Assembly (NCBI RefSeq): GCF_006546655.1
Contig: NZ_VIAQ01000015.1
Coordinates: 372,001 to 436,000 of the forward strand
Length of the DNA stretch: 64,000 nt
Source of the DNA: Methanolobus vulcani
Lineage (GTDB): Archaea > Halobacteriota > Methanosarcinia > Methanosarcinales > Methanosarcinaceae
Reading direction: 5' to 3'
The notes under the pieces are model-generated. The model did no database searches and was not told where the DNA came from. It was given only the letters and a program-made list of their open reading frames with translations. Of the stretch, positions 11,530 through 19,424 are shown one piece after another. Position numbers and translations under genes: made by a program. Each line of letters opens with the position of its first letter. Position 1 is the stretch's first letter.

Positions 11530-11726
11530 GGATTTTTGTCTTCCTGTGGAGAACTATACTTGATATTGCACGGTGTAAGCTTATAAAGCTTTACAGGAAG
11601 CTGATGATTTTGATATCTCTCGTTCAGCTATTAGTAAATCACTATGGGCTGATATGTGTTAACATGTCACATTCTTCCAGATATCTTTATCAATAATCAT
11701 TTTGTATGACTTGGCAGGAGATTAAC

Positions 11727-13556
11727 ATGAGCACACGCGAGTACATGCTGGGAAACGTTGCAATTGCACGCGGTATCGTGGAAGGAGGCGGACAGGTCAT
11801 ATCCGGTTATCCCGGAACACCGTCCTCTGAGATCATCGGTACACTGGCAGGGATGAAGGAAAGAGACTTTTACGTAGAGTGGTCGGTCAATGAGAAAGTT
11901 GCCCTTGAAGTAGCAGCAGGTGCTGCAATGGCTGGCGTGCGTTCAGTAGTAACCATGAAACACGTCGGATTAAATGTAGCTGCTGATCCATTACTCACCC
12001 TTGCTTACATGGGTGTCAAAGGCAGCATGATAATAATCGTTGCAGACGATCCTTCATGCCATTCATCACAAAATGAGCAGGACACCCGCAGATACTCACA
12101 ATTCTCACTCATACCATGTCTTGACCCTTCCACACCACAGGAAGCCAAGGACATGATTCCATACGCATTCGAATTCTCAAACAAGGTCCAGATGCCTGTT
12201 ATCTTCAGGCCGACAACCCGTATTTCCCACGGGAAATCAGATATTGAGCTTGGACCTGTGGAAGAAACAAGACCTGCAGCAGAGTTCGTAAAGGACCTTG
12301 AAAGATGGGTTATGGTTCCAAAGAATGCAAGGGTACAGCATGTTCATCTGCTTGAGATTCAGAAAACCATGCAGGAAGAGTTGGAAAACTCTCCATGGAA
12401 CTCATTGGAACTTGTTGACGGCGCAAAGGTAGGAGTCATAGCATCAGGTATTGCTTCAGTTTATGCAAAGGAAGCTATTATTAAACAGGGTATCAAAGCA
12501 TCATTCCTCAAGATCGGAACCTATCCTGTTCCTGAGAACAAGATACGCACTCTCCTTGAGAATACGGAGAAAGTAATCATTTTCGAGGAAATGGAGCCAA
12601 TAGTTGAGGAACAGGTCAGAATAATTGCACAGCAGACAGGTTCTACTGTAGATATCGTCGGCAAGATGCCAGGGCCGGTTCCAAGAGTATACGAACTGAA
12701 CACCGATATCTGTGCAGACGTTCTTGCAGAGGTTCTTGAACTTGAAAGACCGGATGTTCCTGCAGAAGTCTCAGAGGACTCCGATTATGACCGTTGCAGG
12801 ATTGACCTGCCAATGCGTCCTCCTGTCATGTGTCCGGGATGTTCCCACAGGGCAAGTTTCCATGTCATGAAAAAAGTCTACGGCAAGGATGCGATTTTCC
12901 CAAGTGATATTGGATGTTACACACTGGGTATCCAGAGCGGCACAGTTGACACAACACTCTGTATGGGTGGAAGCATAACCGTAGCAAGCGGAATGTATCA
13001 TGCAGGAGAGAAAAAACCGATATGCTGTTCAATTGGAGATTCAACATTCTTCCACACTGGAATGAATGGCCTGCTCAATGCTATCTATAATAAAGCAGAC
13101 ATCACAGTAACTATAGTGGATAACCGCATCACTGCAATGACCGGTCATCAGCCAAATCCTGGGATGGGTAAGCTTGTAACAGGTGAGCCAACAATTGAAG
13201 TTTCTCTTGAGGAATTGTGTAAGGGTATGGGTGCCGGTTTTGTGGAAACGGTTGATCCCTATGACCTTGAGAAATGTGAAGAGGTCTTCAAAAGGGCAAA
13301 AGAATACAAGGGTACATCGGTTGTCATTACAAGACAGTATTGTGTTATTGATGCAAAGCGTTCCGGTATTCGCAGGAAACCATTTACTATCGATGCTGAG
13401 AAATGTGTCGGCTGCAAACTCTGTGTAAACCTCGGCTGTCCTGCAATTGAGTTTGACACTACTACAAAGAAAGCATCTATCAATGCAATGTGTACCGGCT
13501 GTGGAGTATGTGCAGCCCTGTGTAAATTTGATGCTATCACGGAGGTGAAGAAATGA
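11727..13556 (+). CDS. iorA: Indolepyruvate:ferredoxin oxidoreductase, alpha subunit
   Basis: A 609-residue subunit of the thiamine-diphosphate enzyme that oxidatively decarboxylates aryl pyruvates to aryl-acetyl-CoA (or runs in reverse for aromatic amino-acid synthesis), using ferredoxin. The pyrimidine domain starts YPGTPSSEI. The TPP domain shows CPGCSHR and GDSTFFHTG. The C-terminal ferredoxin domain carries CVGCKLCVNLGCP and CTGCGVCAALC, ligands for two Fe-S clusters. I chose ATG 11727 over ATG 11706 because AGGAG lies 6-7 bases upstream of it. It overlaps iorB by 4 bp (ATGA). Confidence 0.95.
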   Translation: MSTREYMLGNVAIARGIVEGGGQVISGYPGTPSSEIIGTLAGMKERDFYVEWSVNEKVALEVAAGAAMAGVRSVVTMKHVGLNVAADPLLTLAYMGVKGSMIIIVADDPSCHSSQNEQDTRRYSQFSLIPCLDPSTPQEAKDMIPYAFEFSNKVQMPVIFRPTTRISHGKSDIELGPVEETRPAAEFVKDLERWVMVPKNARVQHVHLLEIQKTMQEELENSPWNSLELVDGAKVGVIASGIASVYAKEAIIKQGIKASFLKIGTYPVPENKIRTLLENTEKVIIFEEMEPIVEEQVRIIAQQTGSTVDIVGKMPGPVPRVYELNTDICADVLAEVLELERPDVPAEVSEDSDYDRCRIDLPMRPPVMCPGCSHRASFHVMKKVYGKDAIFPSDIGCYTLGIQSGTVDTTLCMGGSITVASGMYHAGEKKPICCSIGDSTFFHTGMNGLLNAIYNKADITVTIVDNRITAMTGHQPNPGMGKLVTGEPTIEVSLEELCKGMGAGFVETVDPYDLEKCEEVFKRAKEYKGTSVVITRQYCVIDAKRSGIRRKPFTIDAEKCVGCKLCVNLGCPAIEFDTTTKKASINAMCTGCGVCAALCKFDAITEVKK

Positions 13557-14149
13557 GTGCTGAAGGAATATCTAAATTTGATCTTGTCATCGCCGGTGTG
13601 GGTGGACAGGGTACTGTCCTTGCATCAGACATAATCGGTAAGGCTGCTGTAAAGGAAAACATGTCCGTACGTGCAGCAGAAACACATGGAATGGCACAGC
13701 GTGGCGGATCTGTTGTAAATCACATCAGGCTTGGCTGTGAACTTGGTTCCATGATCCCGATGAAAGGAGCTGACGTTCTGCTTGCACTTGAACCAAGTGA
13801 GGCACTCAGGTATCTTGAATTCCTTTCTGATGATGGTACTATAATAGTAAACACCGACCCCATACATCCGGTAACAGTGACTTCAGGACAGTGTACCTAT
13901 CCTGATGTCGATGCAATCATTGCAAAGCTGGAAGAAACCCACAAGGTCAAAGCTTTCAATGCAACTGAGCTTGCAAAGGAGGCAGGTCATCCACAGTCCA
14001 TGAACGTTGCCATGGTTGGTGCAGTCTCAAGCTATCTTCCTGTTTCTATTGATACTCTGGTTGAATGTGTCAGGGAACTTGTTCCTCAGAAGAGCATTGA
14101 TATCAACGTTAAGGCTTTTGAGATGGGCCGGGATATAACTCAAGGATGA
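13553..14149 (+). CDS. iorB: Indolepyruvate:ferredoxin oxidoreductase, beta subunit
   Basis: The 198-residue gamma/beta-type subunit of the same oxidoreductase. It contains the glycine-rich GVGGQGT motif near residue 17 and the ETHGMAQRGG segment typical of the family. It is translationally coupled to iorA by the ATGA overlap, and the two make the functional heteromer. The stop codon lies inside a perfect 8-bp hairpin that probably ends the transcript. Confidence 0.95.
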   Translation: MSAEGISKFDLVIAGVGGQGTVLASDIIGKAAVKENMSVRAAETHGMAQRGGSVVNHIRLGCELGSMIPMKGADVLLALEPSEALRYLEFLSDDGTIIVNTDPIHPVTVTSGQCTYPDVDAIIAKLEETHKVKAFNATELAKEAGHPQSMNVAMVGAVSSYLPVSIDTLVECVRELVPQKSIDINVKAFEMGRDITQG

Positions 14150-14161
14150 TCTTATCATCCT
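14143..14161 (+). terminator. Hairpin terminator containing the iorB stop
   Basis: AGGATGAT and ATCATCCT form a perfect 8-bp stem around a CTT loop; the iorB TGA is within the 5' arm. A T-rich run (TCTTTTATTTTTC) follows directly. Confidence 0.7.
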
Positions 14162-14343
14162 GTTAATCTTTTATTTTTCTTTGTTTGACTTTGATTTATT
14201 TTCATTTTTGAATATTTCTTAGGCATGCGTAGCTATATACAATCTCAACTTTTAATATTATATTCATCTTCTTATTTTACGTAAAGTCTTTAAACAATAT
14301 TGACCTATATTTACTTGTATCATATATTGCGGGAGAATTAAAT

Positions 14344-14952
14344 ATGGCATCAGTTGGACAAAAATTGTTAGATGTTCCATTTGGGGACATGATAAAAGAG
14401 ATGGCCTTTGCCATCGCAGAAGGGCAGACTGCACTTGATATGAATTCTATCAATGTCGCACAGGCCCTTGCAGAGACAGAACTAGAGGCTGGAAGTGTAA
14501 TTCTCTATATAGAGGAAACAGTGGATGAGGATAATAACGTCACTGCAACTGATGTGGTAACGAACGATCAACCAATGTCACTGTTGACCTATGGTCTGGA
14601 GCCACGTTTCTATGAATTCACTGAATCTATCATTGAGGTAAAGATGACAATCTCAATGAAGAGGGAGTATTCTACAGAAAGGAAATATGGCCGGGAATTC
14701 AAGTTCACCAATGAATCAAAGATTAAAGGTAGCTACCAGTCCGGTGGGCTTGCAGGTCTTCTCTTCGGTAAGGCCAAGGTAAGTGCTGAGAATACCACTA
14801 ATGTTGCATACACATCTACTTACGATGCAACATACAAGTCCAAGTATACTTTCAATGAATCGGGCACCAGTCTTCTGAGAACTACCCTTAAGCCAGTACC
14901 TCCTCCAGAAAGAGCTGTTCCTACGGTTCGTGTGAAAGAGGCTACTGAGTAA
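14344..14952 (+). CDS. Unrecognised protein, DUF2589-like organisation (cassette gene 1)
   Basis: A 202-residue protein with no signal peptide or membrane segment. An N-terminal helix (residues 12-36, IKEMAFAIAEGQTALDMNSI region) is followed by a proline-containing linker and a beta-strand module with EVKMTISM at residues 98-105. A Ser/Thr/Tyr-rich, beta-type C-terminal half comes next, then a Pro-rich tail. This plan recalls DUF2589 proteins, but that is a likeness from memory. GGGAG precedes the ATG. It heads a four-gene set ending at 16766; gene 2 is a shorter relative sharing both motifs. Confidence 0.65.
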   Translation: MASVGQKLLDVPFGDMIKEMAFAIAEGQTALDMNSINVAQALAETELEAGSVILYIEETVDEDNNVTATDVVTNDQPMSLLTYGLEPRFYEFTESIIEVKMTISMKREYSTERKYGREFKFTNESKIKGSYQSGGLAGLLFGKAKVSAENTTNVAYTSTYDATYKSKYTFNESGTSLLRTTLKPVPPPERAVPTVRVKEATE

Positions 14953-15023
14953 TAAAGGTCTTATCAATGCAGTCATAGTCTGCATTGGCCATTTATTTTT
15001 ACGATGATCGAGGGGGTAGTATA

Positions 15024-15431
15024 TTGCCATCCAGTAGTAACGTGAATATTGAAGAGGTACTTGTCAGCCCTCTTTCTACAATATTAAGTGAGATGGGTAA
15101 ATCTATTGCTCAGACTCAAAAAGCAATGGATAAAAACTCAATTGACACTCAGATAGAGTTATCCAGTGATGAAGTTCTTAAAGATTACAATCTGGAAGCT
15201 ACATGGTATCATCTTCCTGAAGTGGATATTGAACTCAAGATGACTCTTTCTATGTCATATGAAGAAGAAAAAGATTCCAAAGGCCTTGTTCGCGGATACA
15301 AACGTATTCTGAAGGCAGCGCCATTAAATGCATCATATAAATCACTAAATTCTTATGATGTAGAGGGTTCAAGTGTCCTGAAAGCCAAGATTGTATCAGT
15401 ACCACCATCTTACCGTGTAACGGAAGAGTGA
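15024..15431 (+). CDS. Short paralogue of cassette gene 1
   Basis: A 135-residue protein that matches the upstream protein in two places: ILSEMGKSIAQTQKAMDKNSI near residues 20-40 (compare MIKEM..IAEGQTALDMNSI) and ELKMTLSM at residues 70-77 (compare EVKMTISM). It lacks the long Ser/Thr-rich segment and ends in a similar PPS/PP tail. The start is taken as TTG 15024 because GAGGGGG lies 7 bases upstream; the longer frame from 14985 has no ribosome binding site. No membrane or secretion signal is present. Function is unknown. Confidence 0.65.
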   Translation: MPSSSNVNIEEVLVSPLSTILSEMGKSIAQTQKAMDKNSIDTQIELSSDEVLKDYNLEATWYHLPEVDIELKMTLSMSYEEEKDSKGLVRGYKRILKAAPLNASYKSLNSYDVEGSSVLKAKIVSVPPSYRVTEE

Positions 15432-15447
15432 GCGCAGGAGGGTTGGA

Positions 15448-16515
15448 ATGGTTGATATTACTGATCTCAGGAAAAATCTTGAAAGTCTTAACAAAGCAAC
15501 TACGGCTGCAGCAAAAAGAAAAAGTTATCTTCTTGCTGAAAGAACTATTGCAGCTATGGAGTCTGAATATGAAAGTATCAATAACGACCTTATCTCTAAA
15601 ACAGCTACACTTGAAGATCTTCAGAAAGAAAATCTTGCTTTAAAACAGGAATATTTGATATTGGATAGTCGTGTAAAGGATATCATCAATGAGAAGCTGG
15701 AACTTGAGAAAAAGTTGGAACAAATATCACGTACTAGGCCAGAACTTTCATCGGAAAACCTGGTAAAAGCATTTAGTGATTCGCTTCAGAGTATGGAATC
15801 CTCTCTTATAGGGAGTTCTTCACGGGTAAATTATAGTGTTAGTTCTATGAATATCAAACTCAAGACAAATATTGCTATGAGTGGCAATGATCTTCGTTTC
15901 CAGTTACCTAAAGCAGATGATCTTATTCCTGCGAGTAACTTGAGTGAGGTTGAATTCACTATTAGTTCATCATCAAAGACTCCCGACTTCAACAGCTATG
16001 AAGATGTACCTGATGTTGTAGGTCTGGAACTTGATGCTGCACTTACTATTATCAAAGAAGCAGGTTTTGTGCAGGGAGAAATTATTGAAAAGGAAAGTGA
16101 TTTTGTACAGGGTACTGTACTTTCACAGATGCCTTCTGGCAATTCTGTTGCAAAGCCCGGTGATACTGTTGATCTGGTAATTTCAAAGATTACATCTGTG
16201 GAGGTTCCTGATCTGACAGGTAATACTCTCGCAGTTGTCAGGAAATCATTGGAAGAGCGTGGTCTGTCCCTGGGCAAGGTGACTGAGCAGGTGAATTCCT
16301 TGAAAGCTGGCACGGTTATAGGTCAGTCTGTTGAAGCAGGCATTTATGCAGATATTGGAACTGCCATAGATCTTGTTGTTGCAAGTTCAAATATAGAGTT
16401 TGCTGCAGTTTCCGGAAGTACTGCTGTAAGGCCCGTATCAACGTCGGTTGCTAGATCACCAGTAAGTGTGGGTGCAAGGATTAGTTCCACAAGAAAATCT
16501 GTTCTTCGGAAGTAG
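15448..16515 (+). CDS. Coiled-coil protein with two PASTA domains (cassette gene 3)
   Basis: A 355-residue protein. Residues about 1-95 form a long Glu/Lys/Leu-rich coiled coil. Residues 128-175 hold a beta module with NIKLKTNIAMSG that echoes the KMTxSM strand of the two upstream proteins. Residues 187-247 (VPDVVGLELDAA start) and 252-313 (VPDLTGNTLAVV start) are two PASTA repeats. The tail is Ser/Arg-rich. PASTA domains usually sit outside the cell on penicillin-binding proteins and Ser/Thr kinases, but here there is no membrane segment or kinase. GGAGGG precedes the ATG, and the gene ends in TAG. Confidence 0.75.
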   Translation: MVDITDLRKNLESLNKATTAAAKRKSYLLAERTIAAMESEYESINNDLISKTATLEDLQKENLALKQEYLILDSRVKDIINEKLELEKKLEQISRTRPELSSENLVKAFSDSLQSMESSLIGSSSRVNYSVSSMNIKLKTNIAMSGNDLRFQLPKADDLIPASNLSEVEFTISSSSKTPDFNSYEDVPDVVGLELDAALTIIKEAGFVQGEIIEKESDFVQGTVLSQMPSGNSVAKPGDTVDLVISKITSVEVPDLTGNTLAVVRKSLEERGLSLGKVTEQVNSLKAGTVIGQSVEAGIYADIGTAIDLVVASSNIEFAAVSGSTAVRPVSTSVARSPVSVGARISSTRKSVLRK

Positions 16516-16520
16516 CAGTA

Positions 16521-16766
16521 ATGCCTGTTGAAACTCATCTTGTGAGGGTTGCAGACAATGCAACCCCTTCCCAGATAGAAGGAATACTGAAAGCTTTAGT
16601 AAGTATAGGTGGCAGAGTTGATGTTATTGCAAATAAAAGTATAATTGCTACTTTTGATGGTGACTATTCCGAGGTCATCAAACGCAAACCTGGTGTTCTC
16701 CTTGTCGGAGGGGTTAATTTCAGGGGTCGAACAGTGAGAAAAGTTATCAAACGGAACCCACAATGA
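16521..16766 (+). CDS. Small protein with peptidase-inhibitor I9-like pattern (cassette gene 4)
   Basis: An 81-residue protein 5 bp behind the PASTA gene. The predicted order beta-alpha-beta-beta-alpha-beta, with GGRVDVI in the middle and KPGVLLVGGV near the end, resembles the inhibitor I9/subtilisin prodomain fold (compare the PGVxxVE ending of that family). The C-terminus is basic (RTVRKVIKR). No protease is encoded nearby, so an inhibitor role is speculative; it could be a stand-alone ferredoxin-like-fold adaptor. The tight spacing makes it part of the cassette transcript. Confidence 0.6.
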   Translation: MPVETHLVRVADNATPSQIEGILKALVSIGGRVDVIANKSIIATFDGDYSEVIKRKPGVLLVGGVNFRGRTVRKVIKRNPQ

Positions 16767-16862
16767 TTAGAATATTGTGGACTCAGGTTCTTATTCCCTA
16801 CATATTATAGTGCGAAGATTAGTTTCGCAGTATTTGGTAGCAAGAGCTTCTCTAAAAAATAA

Positions 16863-17726
16863 TCACAGGTTAATGCCTGCAATATGTTCTTTTATTTGTT
16901 CTCTCATCTCTTCTTTATTAAGGGCAAAGTCAATTACGGCTTTGACATATTCTACTTTGTCACCGGTGTCATATCTTTTTCCCATGAACTTGTAAGCATA
17001 GACTTTTTGTTCTTCATTTAAAAGGCGTATTCCGTCAGTTAACTGAATCTCATTGCCTACTCCTTTGTCTGTCTGCATGATGCAGTCCAGTATTTCGGGT
17101 GTGAATACGTATCTTCCGATTGCACCGATGTTTGAAGGTGCTTCTTGTGGGGATGGCTTCTCTATAATATCTTCCAGGATGTAAAGTGAATCTTCCACTG
17201 GTTGGCCTTTGATTATTCCATAACTCCCGGTTTTTTCGATTGGAACTTCTTCTACTGCAATTGTCGAGCGACCATATTTCATGAAATTATCGATGAGTTG
17301 TTTTGTGCATGGTTTCTTATTTACTATAATGTCATCACCAAGGAGGACTGCAAAAGGTTCGTCATTAATATGCTTTTTAGCAGTAAGGATGGCATCTCCA
17401 AGTCCATTAGGCTCTTTCTGGCGGATGTAGTGTATATCTACCATGGAAGATATGTCCTGTACGATTTTCAGGAGCTTTTCATTATTCTTTTGACGAAGGT
17501 GATTCTCAAGTTCGGGGGAATCGTCAAAATAATCTTCAATTGAACGTTTACTTCTGCCTGTTACAAATATTATATCATCAATGCCGGATGCTATGGCTTC
17601 TTCTACCACATAATGGATTACCGGAATATCAATTATAGGTAACATCTCTTTGGGCATGGATTTTGTGGCAGGCAGGAATCTGGTTCCCATTCCTGCAACA
17701 GGTATCACTGCTTTTTTAATTTCCAC
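16863..17726 (-). CDS. galU: UTP-glucose-1-phosphate uridylyltransferase
   Basis: A 287-residue nucleotidyltransferase making UDP-glucose from glucose 1-phosphate and UTP for surface glycans. The N-terminus shows IPVAGMGTRFLPATK with the nucleotide-binding GxGTR and catalytic Lys region; KEMLPI and the GLGDAI segment follow. It converges on the unrecognised cassette and has its promoter in the long AT-rich gap upstream (17727-18000), where two perfect inverted repeats lie. Confidence 0.93.
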   Translation of the reverse strand: MEIKKAVIPVAGMGTRFLPATKSMPKEMLPIIDIPVIHYVVEEAIASGIDDIIFVTGRSKRSIEDYFDDSPELENHLRQKNNEKLLKIVQDISSMVDIHYIRQKEPNGLGDAILTAKKHINDEPFAVLLGDDIIVNKKPCTKQLIDNFMKYGRSTIAVEEVPIEKTGSYGIIKGQPVEDSLYILEDIIEKPSPQEAPSNIGAIGRYVFTPEILDCIMQTDKGVGNEIQLTDGIRLLNEEQKVYAYKFMGKRYDTGDKVEYVKAVIDFALNKEEMREQIKEHIAGINL

Positions 17727-17792
17727 TTTTTAACTCCTGATTTTCTGGTGTAGGCTATGTCCTGTAATATATCTTGTTTCTCTGATGAACTT

Positions 17793-17867
17793 TATGTATA
17801 TATAATCTATACATATAGTATTATTCTGATATTTTTAAATCATCCTTATCTGTAAATATGATTTACA
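17793..17867. promoter_or_regulatory. Two perfect inverted repeats upstream of galU
   Basis: TATGTATA and TATACATA (17793-17800 and 17808-17815) flank 7 bases. TGTAAAT and ATTTACA (17851-17857 and 17861-17867) flank ATG. Both lie in an AT-rich, gene-free stretch 70-140 bases upstream of galU on its strand. They may be TATA/operator elements for galU. Nothing else recognisable is seen in 17727-18000. Confidence 0.35.
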
Positions 17868-18008
17868 TTTTCCGGGATTATTGGATTAATTAATCTATTG
17901 CTTATGCGCAGTGTTCATATCGGATCAGGAGTATTTTACCACTGAAAAATTATTTGTTTAGTATAAATTGTGCCCATTTGTATTTCAGTCTATTTTTCTT
18001 GCAAAGGG

Positions 18009-18025
18009 TTTATATATTATATATT
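18009..18025 (+). promoter_or_regulatory. TATA box for the rpl3 ribosomal operon
   Basis: A TTTATATATTATATATT stretch is preceded by AAAGGG (possible BRE side). It lies about 25 bases before GGCGCAGCG, where GC-richer, structured sequence begins. A start near 18034 would give a leader of about 375 nt before rpl3. Confidence 0.55.
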
Positions 18026-18033
18026 CCTTTAAT

Positions 18034-18400
18034 GGCGCAGCGTAGATTACGTAGGAATATGTAATTCTACATGTATTAAGATTACAGTGCGAAAAAGTCG
18101 GATTTAACATGAAGTATAATTGGGCCTCTTCAGGAATGCCCGCTTACACATAAGGTGTTAAAATACTGGGATGTTTAAATCTTTTCGAGATGACCCCTCA
18201 GTAGTTCCTTTGGGCTACGAAGGTCTGGTGATGACTGGAATATTGTACAGATTCGGCGTTGAATGCGTATCATGTGAATACGTGGAGTCCGCCTTATCTA
18301 GTCTTCTTCCTGATTGTTTCCGGTTCCTGCCTGACTTTCTCGCGTAAATTGGCCTATGCAAAATTGCATAGACCTGCCAAGAAGAAAATGTGTAAATTAG
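18034..18400 (+). ncRNA. Long structured leader (or separate RNA) upstream of rpl3
   Basis: There is no convincing reading frame. Several hairpins can be drawn. At 18042-18070, GTAGATTAC pairs with GTAATTCTAC with one bulge. At 18122-18141 GGGC pairs with GCCC. At 18255-18293 a nested element has outer GGCG/CGCC and inner CGTAT/ATACG. At 18354-18371 CTATGCAA pairs with TTGCATAG just ahead of the rpl3 ribosome binding site. It may be the 5' untranslated region that controls the operon, or hold an independent RNA. It does not match SRP RNA or RNase P RNA signatures that I know. Confidence 0.5.
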
Positions 18401-18410
18401 GAGAATAATA

Positions 18411-19424
18411 ATGGCAAAAGGACATAGACCAAAACGAGGATCACTCGCTTTCAGTCCACGCGTAAGAGCAAAAAGCCACGTACCAAGGTTTAACTCATGG
18501 CCAGAAGCAGCTGGGGAACCAAAGCTCCAGGACTTTGCAGGCTATAAGGTAGGTATGACCCATGTGGTAATGGTAGATGACACAAAGAACAGCCTCACAG
18601 AAGGTATGGAGATCTCAGTTCCTGTAACTGTTGTAGAAACTCCGGTTGTTCGTGTTGCTGCAATTCGTGCTTATGGAAAATCCACACACGGTGAGAAGGC
18701 ACTTTCTGAAGCATGGGCAGCTGATCTTGATGAGGGCCTGGGCAAGACTATTGCACTTCCAAAAGAGTCAAACACTGAAGAGGCTCTTGGTAAACTCGAA
18801 AGTCTGGTTGATGAAGGTAAGGTTACAGACGTAAAAGTCATCACATATACTTTACCAAAGAAGCTTACAGGTGTTCCAAAGAAGAATGCTGACATTATGG
18901 AAACTGCAGTAAGCGGTTCTGATGTTAAGGCAAAACTCGAGTACGCAAAATCCGTACTTGGAGCCGAGATTAAAATTACCGACGTTTTTAATGAAGGTGC
19001 ATTTGTTGACGTGGCAGCTATCACAACCGGTAAGGGTACCCAGGGTCCTGTAAAGAGATGGGGTATCAACCTGCAGAAGAACAAGCACTCACGTCAGGGA
19101 AGTCTCAGGCAGATAGGTACACTTGGTCCTTTCCGTCCTGCTATTGTAAGGTGGACAGTACCTGCGATGGGTCAGATGGGTTATCATCAGAGGACTGAAT
19201 ACAACAAGCGTATTCTTAAGGTAGGCGAAAATGGAGAAGAGATTACTCCTGCCGGCGGTTTCCTTAACTACGGTCTTGTGCGTGGCGAATACATCCTCAT
19301 CAAGGGAAGCATTCCAGGTCCTTCTAAGAGACTTGTAAGACTTAGAGATCCTATGAGGTCAAAGGTGCCTGCTATGGGTGAACCTGAAATTGTTCACGTA
19401 AGCACACAGTCCAAGCAGGGGTGA
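18411..19424 (+). CDS. rpl3: 50S ribosomal protein uL3
   Basis: A 337-residue large-subunit protein near the peptidyl-transferase centre, with the archaeal/eukaryotic long form. The N-terminus is basic ([11 protein letters not shown]) and the conserved central segment [10 protein letters not shown] is present, as is [28 protein letters not shown] precedes the ATG. It is the first gene of a superoperon running to rpl15 and is preceded by an unusually long structured leader. Confidence 0.97.

Follow-up and report, generated by a model that had tools for sequence, protein, structure and literature searches.

The stretch of Methanolobus vulcani DNA analysed here, referred to as the window, comprises 64,000 nucleotides of a 2.92 Mb genome. 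Within it, four genes, A, B, C and D, lie on the same (+) strand at 14344-16766 between iorAB (11706-14149) and a galU-like gene (16863-17726) that converges on them. They encode proteins of 202, 135, 355 and 81 aa, respectively, and are separated by gaps of 71 nt (A-B), 16 nt (B-C) and 5 nt (C-D). Genes were called with a simple longest-ORF script; for B, translation most likely starts at the TTG codon at 15024 (135 aa), and the start at 14985 of the longer, mechanically called ORF looks spurious. Purine-rich Shine-Dalgarno-like sequences are clear upstream of A (gggag), B (gaggggg) and C (aggaggg). None of the four proteins has a transmembrane-like stretch, the mean hydropathy over a 19-residue window being at most 1.41 throughout, and Pfam and profile searches found no kinase domain in any of them. 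These results agree with a preliminary description of the locus as four tightly spaced, co-directional genes with strong ribosome binding sites and without a membrane segment or kinase domain. Rfam gave no match in the interval 13000-18500. The features of the cassette are the following:

14331..14335, + strand: Shine-Dalgarno-like gggag 5' of A, read from the sequence
14344..14952, + strand: gene A, 202 aa, predicted long N-terminal helix and extended beta strands (ORF, predicted fold, DUF2589 profile similarity, dN)
14964..14988, + strand: stem-loop TCAATGCAG-loop-CTGCATTGG in the A-B gap (alignment of loci, pairing, pattern scan of the genome)
14992..15000, + strand: T-rich tract 3' of the stem-loop, terminator-like (sequence; enrichment modest relative to composition)
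15024..15431, + strand: gene B, 135 aa, TTG start, predicted 32-residue helix and beta hairpin (homology to A, predicted fold)
15448..16515, + strand: gene C, 355 aa, with predicted coiled coil, beta domain, two PASTA domains and basic tail (ORF, Pfam, heptad analysis)
15454..15735, + strand: predicted N-terminal coiled-coil region of C (heptad period, weak SMC-like matches)
15736..15990, + strand: beta domain of C (Cbeta), common to the C-type proteins of nearly all cassettes
16006..16188, + strand: PASTA domain 1 of C (Pfam PF03793)
16198..16383, + strand: PASTA domain 2 of C (Pfam PF03793)
16521..16766, + strand: gene D, 81 aa, basic, with remote similarity to Inhibitor I9/subtilisin propeptides (profile comparison)

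Between A and B, a 9-bp stem-loop precedes the T-rich tract, an arrangement that is terminator-like in form. This stem-loop is present in 16/16 aligned loci, 15 from the genus Methanolobus and one from a related genus, and pairing is kept in 99.3% of cells as compared to 19-52% in slid controls. Covariation is scant, with one compensatory pair, because the stem hardly varies. The exact pattern occurs as a single copy in the genome. In other genera, the A-B gap is 33-185 nt long and often T-rich, and this stem is missing or different; B and C, like C and D, mostly overlap or lie a short distance apart. T-tract enrichment in A-B gaps was significant relative to shuffles in only 5/29 cases, and we do not count it as strong evidence. 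The simplest role for the hairpin would be partial termination or protection of an mRNA end, resulting in more A than B, C and D.

Conservation of the cassette and evolutionary rates

We compared 68 A-containing loci that extend more than 3.2 kb downstream of A, with some genomes counted twice. A is followed by B in all 68, Cbeta and PASTA domains are each found in 67, and D is found in 63. Methanolobus shares the order A-B-C-D with other families of the Methanosarcinales sampled, including MAGs named ANME-2, Methanoperedenaceae, Argoarchaeum and Syntrophoarchaeum, and outside the genus the flanks are unrelated. Because it is kept in many genomes, the arrangement is not a matter of chance. A is present in 32 of 60 near relatives and, by profile search, in 47 of 200 sampled genomes of the class, and this patchy presence shows that the cassette is dispensable. 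In eight Methanolobus genomes without A, all four genes are missing and iorB is directly followed by galU (six genomes) or rpl3 (two genomes). Thus, the four genes, whose co-occurrence the preliminary description had proposed to check, are kept and lost together as a conserved all-or-none unit.

Several further arrangements were observed around this site. In two cassette-less Methanolobus (L206 and L212), the adjoining galU-like gene is also missing and iorB runs to rpl3. Short partial A frames in Methanosarcinaceae (G032:C85, G188:C1:3307044-3307286 and G263:C9:117165-117371) are possibly decaying cassettes. In three Methanolobus loci (L036:10649-11845, L041:7095-8285 and L042:5567-6763), a gene between iorB and A encodes a 396-398 aa protein with an N-terminal hydrophobic stretch and a VWA-like motif.

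The four proteins evolve at different rates. Median dN values across Methanolobus rise from A (0.050) through D (0.105) and B (0.115) to C (0.290), with reference values of 0.063 for rpl3 (L3), 0.063 for L4, 0.059 for iorB and about 0.06 for iorAB. In other words, A is under constraint at the level of ribosomal proteins and is the most constrained member of the cassette despite a high dS (1.2-1.5 for A-D versus 0.67 for rpl3), and C evolves about six times faster than A. The contrast between a slow A and a fast C would fit a main structural subunit accompanied by a flexible accessory protein, while the high dS argues against constitutive expression at very high levels.

Protein families, predicted folds and relatives

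A and B are homologous (hhalign probability 99.5%, E 7e-23; hhalign probabilities are from pairwise comparisons of shallow profiles), as expected from the preliminary description, which had recognised them as related and also called them DUF2589-like. The latter label holds for A at the level of remote similarity: in profile-profile comparison, a profile of 65 A-type sequences matches DUF2589 with 96.1% probability (E 3e-9) over 170 collinear columns, while B alone reaches only 38% and unrelated profile pairs used as negative controls 0.2%. By contrast, the Pfam DUF2589 model (PF11655) matches neither A nor B members nor anything else in the M. vulcani genome. We therefore rejected PF11655 as a direct family label for A and B and keep it as a remote relative of A.

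In the AF2 model of A (mean pLDDT 59), residues 11-80 reach about 76-84 and residues 103-172 stay below 50. The predicted N-terminal part resembles B, and two strands of more than 20 residues each form a long distal hairpin, unreliable in the model, around the glycine/leucine-rich loop SGGLAGLLFGK. Such low confidence for a single chain would be consistent with an obligate oligomer and is no proof of one. In the predicted model of B (mean pLDDT 77), a 32-residue helix leads into a long hairpin and one more strand, and B-type genes in the neighbourhoods of relatives carry the signature TWYxxPE. No significant solved structure in the PDB was found for A, all Foldseek E-values being above 0.7; for B, neither Foldseek (E<=0.001) nor VIA-align (Z>=2) returned a PDB match.

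The long hairpin of A raises the alternative that the cassette is a membrane-active or defensive system, in which an amphipathic hairpin forms a pore or disrupts membranes upon activation. Its glycine/leucine-rich loop, a two-residue alternation in its second strand (p=0.024), the many pore-forming toxin hairpins among the weak, non-significant Foldseek matches and the patchy distribution of the cassette are all in line with this idea. However, the tip of the hairpin has a pLDDT below 50 and, with E-values above 0.7, we read the toxin hairpins as generic matches to a long hairpin. As for defence, the only PADLOC matches better than E 1e-3 are those of PASTA to PD-T4-6 models, and the weak matches to JetC (E 0.003) and LmuB (E 0.06) fall mainly on the coiled-coil region. 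Moreover, A is constrained like a ribosomal protein and unlike fast-evolving defence effectors, and the conserved neighbourhood showed no defence genes, its flanks being mostly housekeeping genes. We consider a membrane-active or defensive system improbable, and the defence complex entertained in the preliminary description is not supported for M. vulcani.

C matches PASTA (PF03793) with E 4.6e-24 and 84.6 bits, relative to a gathering cut-off of 23.2, in two domains that score E 9.9e-13 and 5.0e-12 individually. The PASTA assignment made at the outset persists in profile searches and is firm, whereas the coiled coil proposed alongside it is moderately supported by a heptad signal (period 3.5, p=0.045, residues 30-95) and weak SMC-like matches. 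Across cassettes, C-type proteins carry 2-4 PASTA copies. Methanosarcina-type genomes encode, directly upstream of A, another C-like protein (1324-1526 aa) that has at least 12 PASTA domains (L045:10550-14524; L073:2932-7509).

PASTA domains are usually regarded as extracellular wall sensors, and with matches so clearly above the curated cut-off, C might be part of a cell-envelope sensor as in PASTA kinases and penicillin-binding proteins. However, C is without a kinase domain, a transpeptidase domain or a transmembrane-like stretch; a PASTA-kinase model aligns to the PASTA part alone (74 bits versus a cut-off of 450); and some cassettes lack PASTA altogether. Also, to our knowledge, Methanosarcinales have no murein. 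An envelope sensor is, thus, most improbable.

In profile comparison, D aligns remotely with Inhibitor I9/subtilisin propeptides (80.7%, E 1.3e-5, collinear over 58 columns; negative controls 0.2%), while the Pfam I9 model has no match in the M. vulcani genome. D also differs from these propeptides in that it is a stand-alone protein of 81 aa with a basic C-terminus, and no subtilase or other protease is encoded in the cassette or was seen in the conserved neighbourhood.

In 84,980 genomes scanned with profile guidance, 131 relatives were detected and 80 of them kept. They include loci from Bathyarchaeota, Halorubrum, Aquificales, Alphaproteobacteria, myxobacteria, clostridia and cyanobacteria. 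In plasmid, phage and viral collections, the sole match is a cassette on a Sphaerotilus plasmid, which consists of five genes labelled "hypothetical" and has the same plan without PASTA. A is 52-58% identical to homologues in Bathyarchaeota, Elioraea, Persephonella/Aquificales and Methanocalculus and about 30-44% identical to most others; 52-58% identity would be typical of densely contacted structural subunits. What stays constant among the relatives is a core of A-type genes (one to four), a B-type gene and a gene for a Cbeta-bearing coiled-coil protein; a small D-like gene often accompanies it. By contrast, the position of PASTA varies: PASTA and HhH/DUF4332 modules are on C in Methanosarcinales, Bathyarchaeota and Halorubrum and on B in Methanimicrococcus, Pelotalea and clostridia, and PASTA is missing from some cassettes. 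Because these modules move between B and C and PASTA is sometimes absent, PASTA is an optional accessory arm, and the conserved heart of the cassette is A.

Larger bacterial cassettes add TPR, disordered and L7/L12-like proteins. Two of them are headed by genes for proteins with a domain similar to the C-terminal domain of ribosomal L7/L12 (L136:3678-4820, E 2e-7; L137:3194-4312, E 1e-3). A cyanobacterial cassette is followed by two genes with VWA-like motifs recognised by eye, one of which ends in an OmpA domain (L125:3831-7129). In Pleionea, endolysin and holin genes next to the cassette are possibly a lysis-release module, and no other prophage genes were seen in the flanks.

A related layout is found in DUF2589 cassettes from genomes that are presumably Archaeoglobus-like. 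These Archaeoglobus-type cassettes have two DUF2589-type genes and then a third, small gene, the end of which matches Cbeta (89.5%, E 2e-6); unlike those of Methanolobus, they showed neither PASTA nor a coiled-coil arm nor a D gene. Because Cbeta matches this third gene, the A-B-C ground plan appears to be older than the recruitment of PASTA. Such cassettes were observed at L147-L165 (e.g. L149:495-2049) and likely have the same ground plan as A-B-C. Cbeta could not be established as a further copy of the A/B fold: it scores 0.2% against A, 1.3% against a shallow B profile and 36% against a deep B profile. The third gene of the Archaeoglobus-type cassettes scores 67% against B. Stretches of 32 nt in B (15223-15254) and Cbeta (15848-15879) are 75% identical (DIELKMTLSM/NIKLKTNIAM), which may reflect old homology or chance.

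These relatives also bear on the alternative that the cassette forms a cytoplasmic client platform that organises a metabolic or stress enzyme complex and uses PASTA, helix-hairpin-helix and TPR modules as adapters for its clients. The swapping of interaction modules (PASTA, DUF4332/HhH, TPR, L7/L12-like) among cassettes would fit such a platform, as would the reported up-regulation on lactate of the Archaeoglobus fulgidus DUF2589 genes AF0414-AF0417 (PMC3949148), which probably belong to the Archaeoglobus-type cassettes. However, no enzyme is consistently linked to the cassette and the flanks differ from genus to genus. A client platform, therefore, appears somewhat unlikely.

A possible intracellular assembly

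We tentatively suggest that the cassette makes a cytoplasmic, self-assembling hetero-oligomeric scaffold or fibre and acts as one functional unit, which we regard as quite possible and not yet as probable. In the model that we infer, down to its cytoplasmic location, the role of each protein and its biological purpose, A, probably made in excess, would be the principal subunit and would polymerise or co-assemble with its homologous partner B via the helix and the long strands. C would dimerise by its coiled coil, dock via Cbeta, cross-link the assembly and expose PASTA domains, variable in number, as arms for interaction, and D, small and I9-like, would chaperone, cap or regulate the assembly. 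An assembly would explain the observations most economically because one subunit is extremely conserved, has a homologous partner and a coiled-coil companion with variable PASTA, and because the genes are absent as a block. The preliminary description had likewise proposed an assembly, with the PASTA protein as scaffold; of this, the assembly is retained as a proposal and the central place of PASTA, which is optional, passes to A. The compartment that it mentioned as another option found no specific support.

The same proteins could instead belong to a phage-tail-like or virus-derived particle, with A and B as tube or baseplate proteins and release by lysis. Three observations point in this direction. 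On one metagenome contig, a D-like gene and A, B and C are immediately preceded by a T4 gp19-type tail-tube gene (L099:510-941; PF06841, E 3e-36); in Pleionea (L137:13156-14096, genome G327), a GH108 endolysin gene starts 16 nt after the last cassette gene and overlaps a GTA-type holin gene; and one viral model resembles the B fold (E 3.6e-3, TM 0.56). By contrast, a tblastn search of B in phages, run after this resemblance was seen, gave no match, and neither did 50,697 phage records, IMG/VR (pattern scan) or PHROGs. The gp19 and endolysin/holin links are single cases each among 80 loci, and while M. vulcani has the cassette and no gp19 (PF06841) match, another Methanolobus has gp19 and no cassette. 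For M. vulcani, we reject a gp19-based tail on the lack of a PF06841 match in the genome, and a phage-tail origin is not supported; overall, we give a virus-derived particle little probability.

Returning to the self-assembling scaffold or fibre, the cassette is compact, about 2.4 kb, with related cassettes in bacteria, and a conserved unit found across methanogens, haloarchaea and many bacterial phyla with a central protein constrained at the ribosomal level represents a sizeable blind spot. The cassettes may together encode an undescribed, widespread intracellular structure (a filament, fibre or lattice) of archaea and bacteria, built from DUF2589-like subunits, coiled-coil cross-linkers and variable PASTA/HhH arms; we hold this to be possible, though less likely than not. 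Such a polymer, if it exists, would represent a new cytoskeletal or compartment element of prokaryotes and would explain the presence of PASTA domains inside cells without murein.

In the libraries and the non-subscription literature searched, no described kind of system matched; DUF2589 came up in a single paper (PMC3949148), and none links DUF2589, PF11655 or DUF4332 with PASTA. Purely as an analogy, gas vesicle-type clusters also combine a near-invariant structural subunit with fast-evolving repeat or coiled-coil accessory proteins. PASTA kinases and penicillin-binding proteins have tandem PASTA domains in common with C; in C, however, these domains accompany no kinase or transpeptidase domain, are joined to a predicted coiled coil and are optional.
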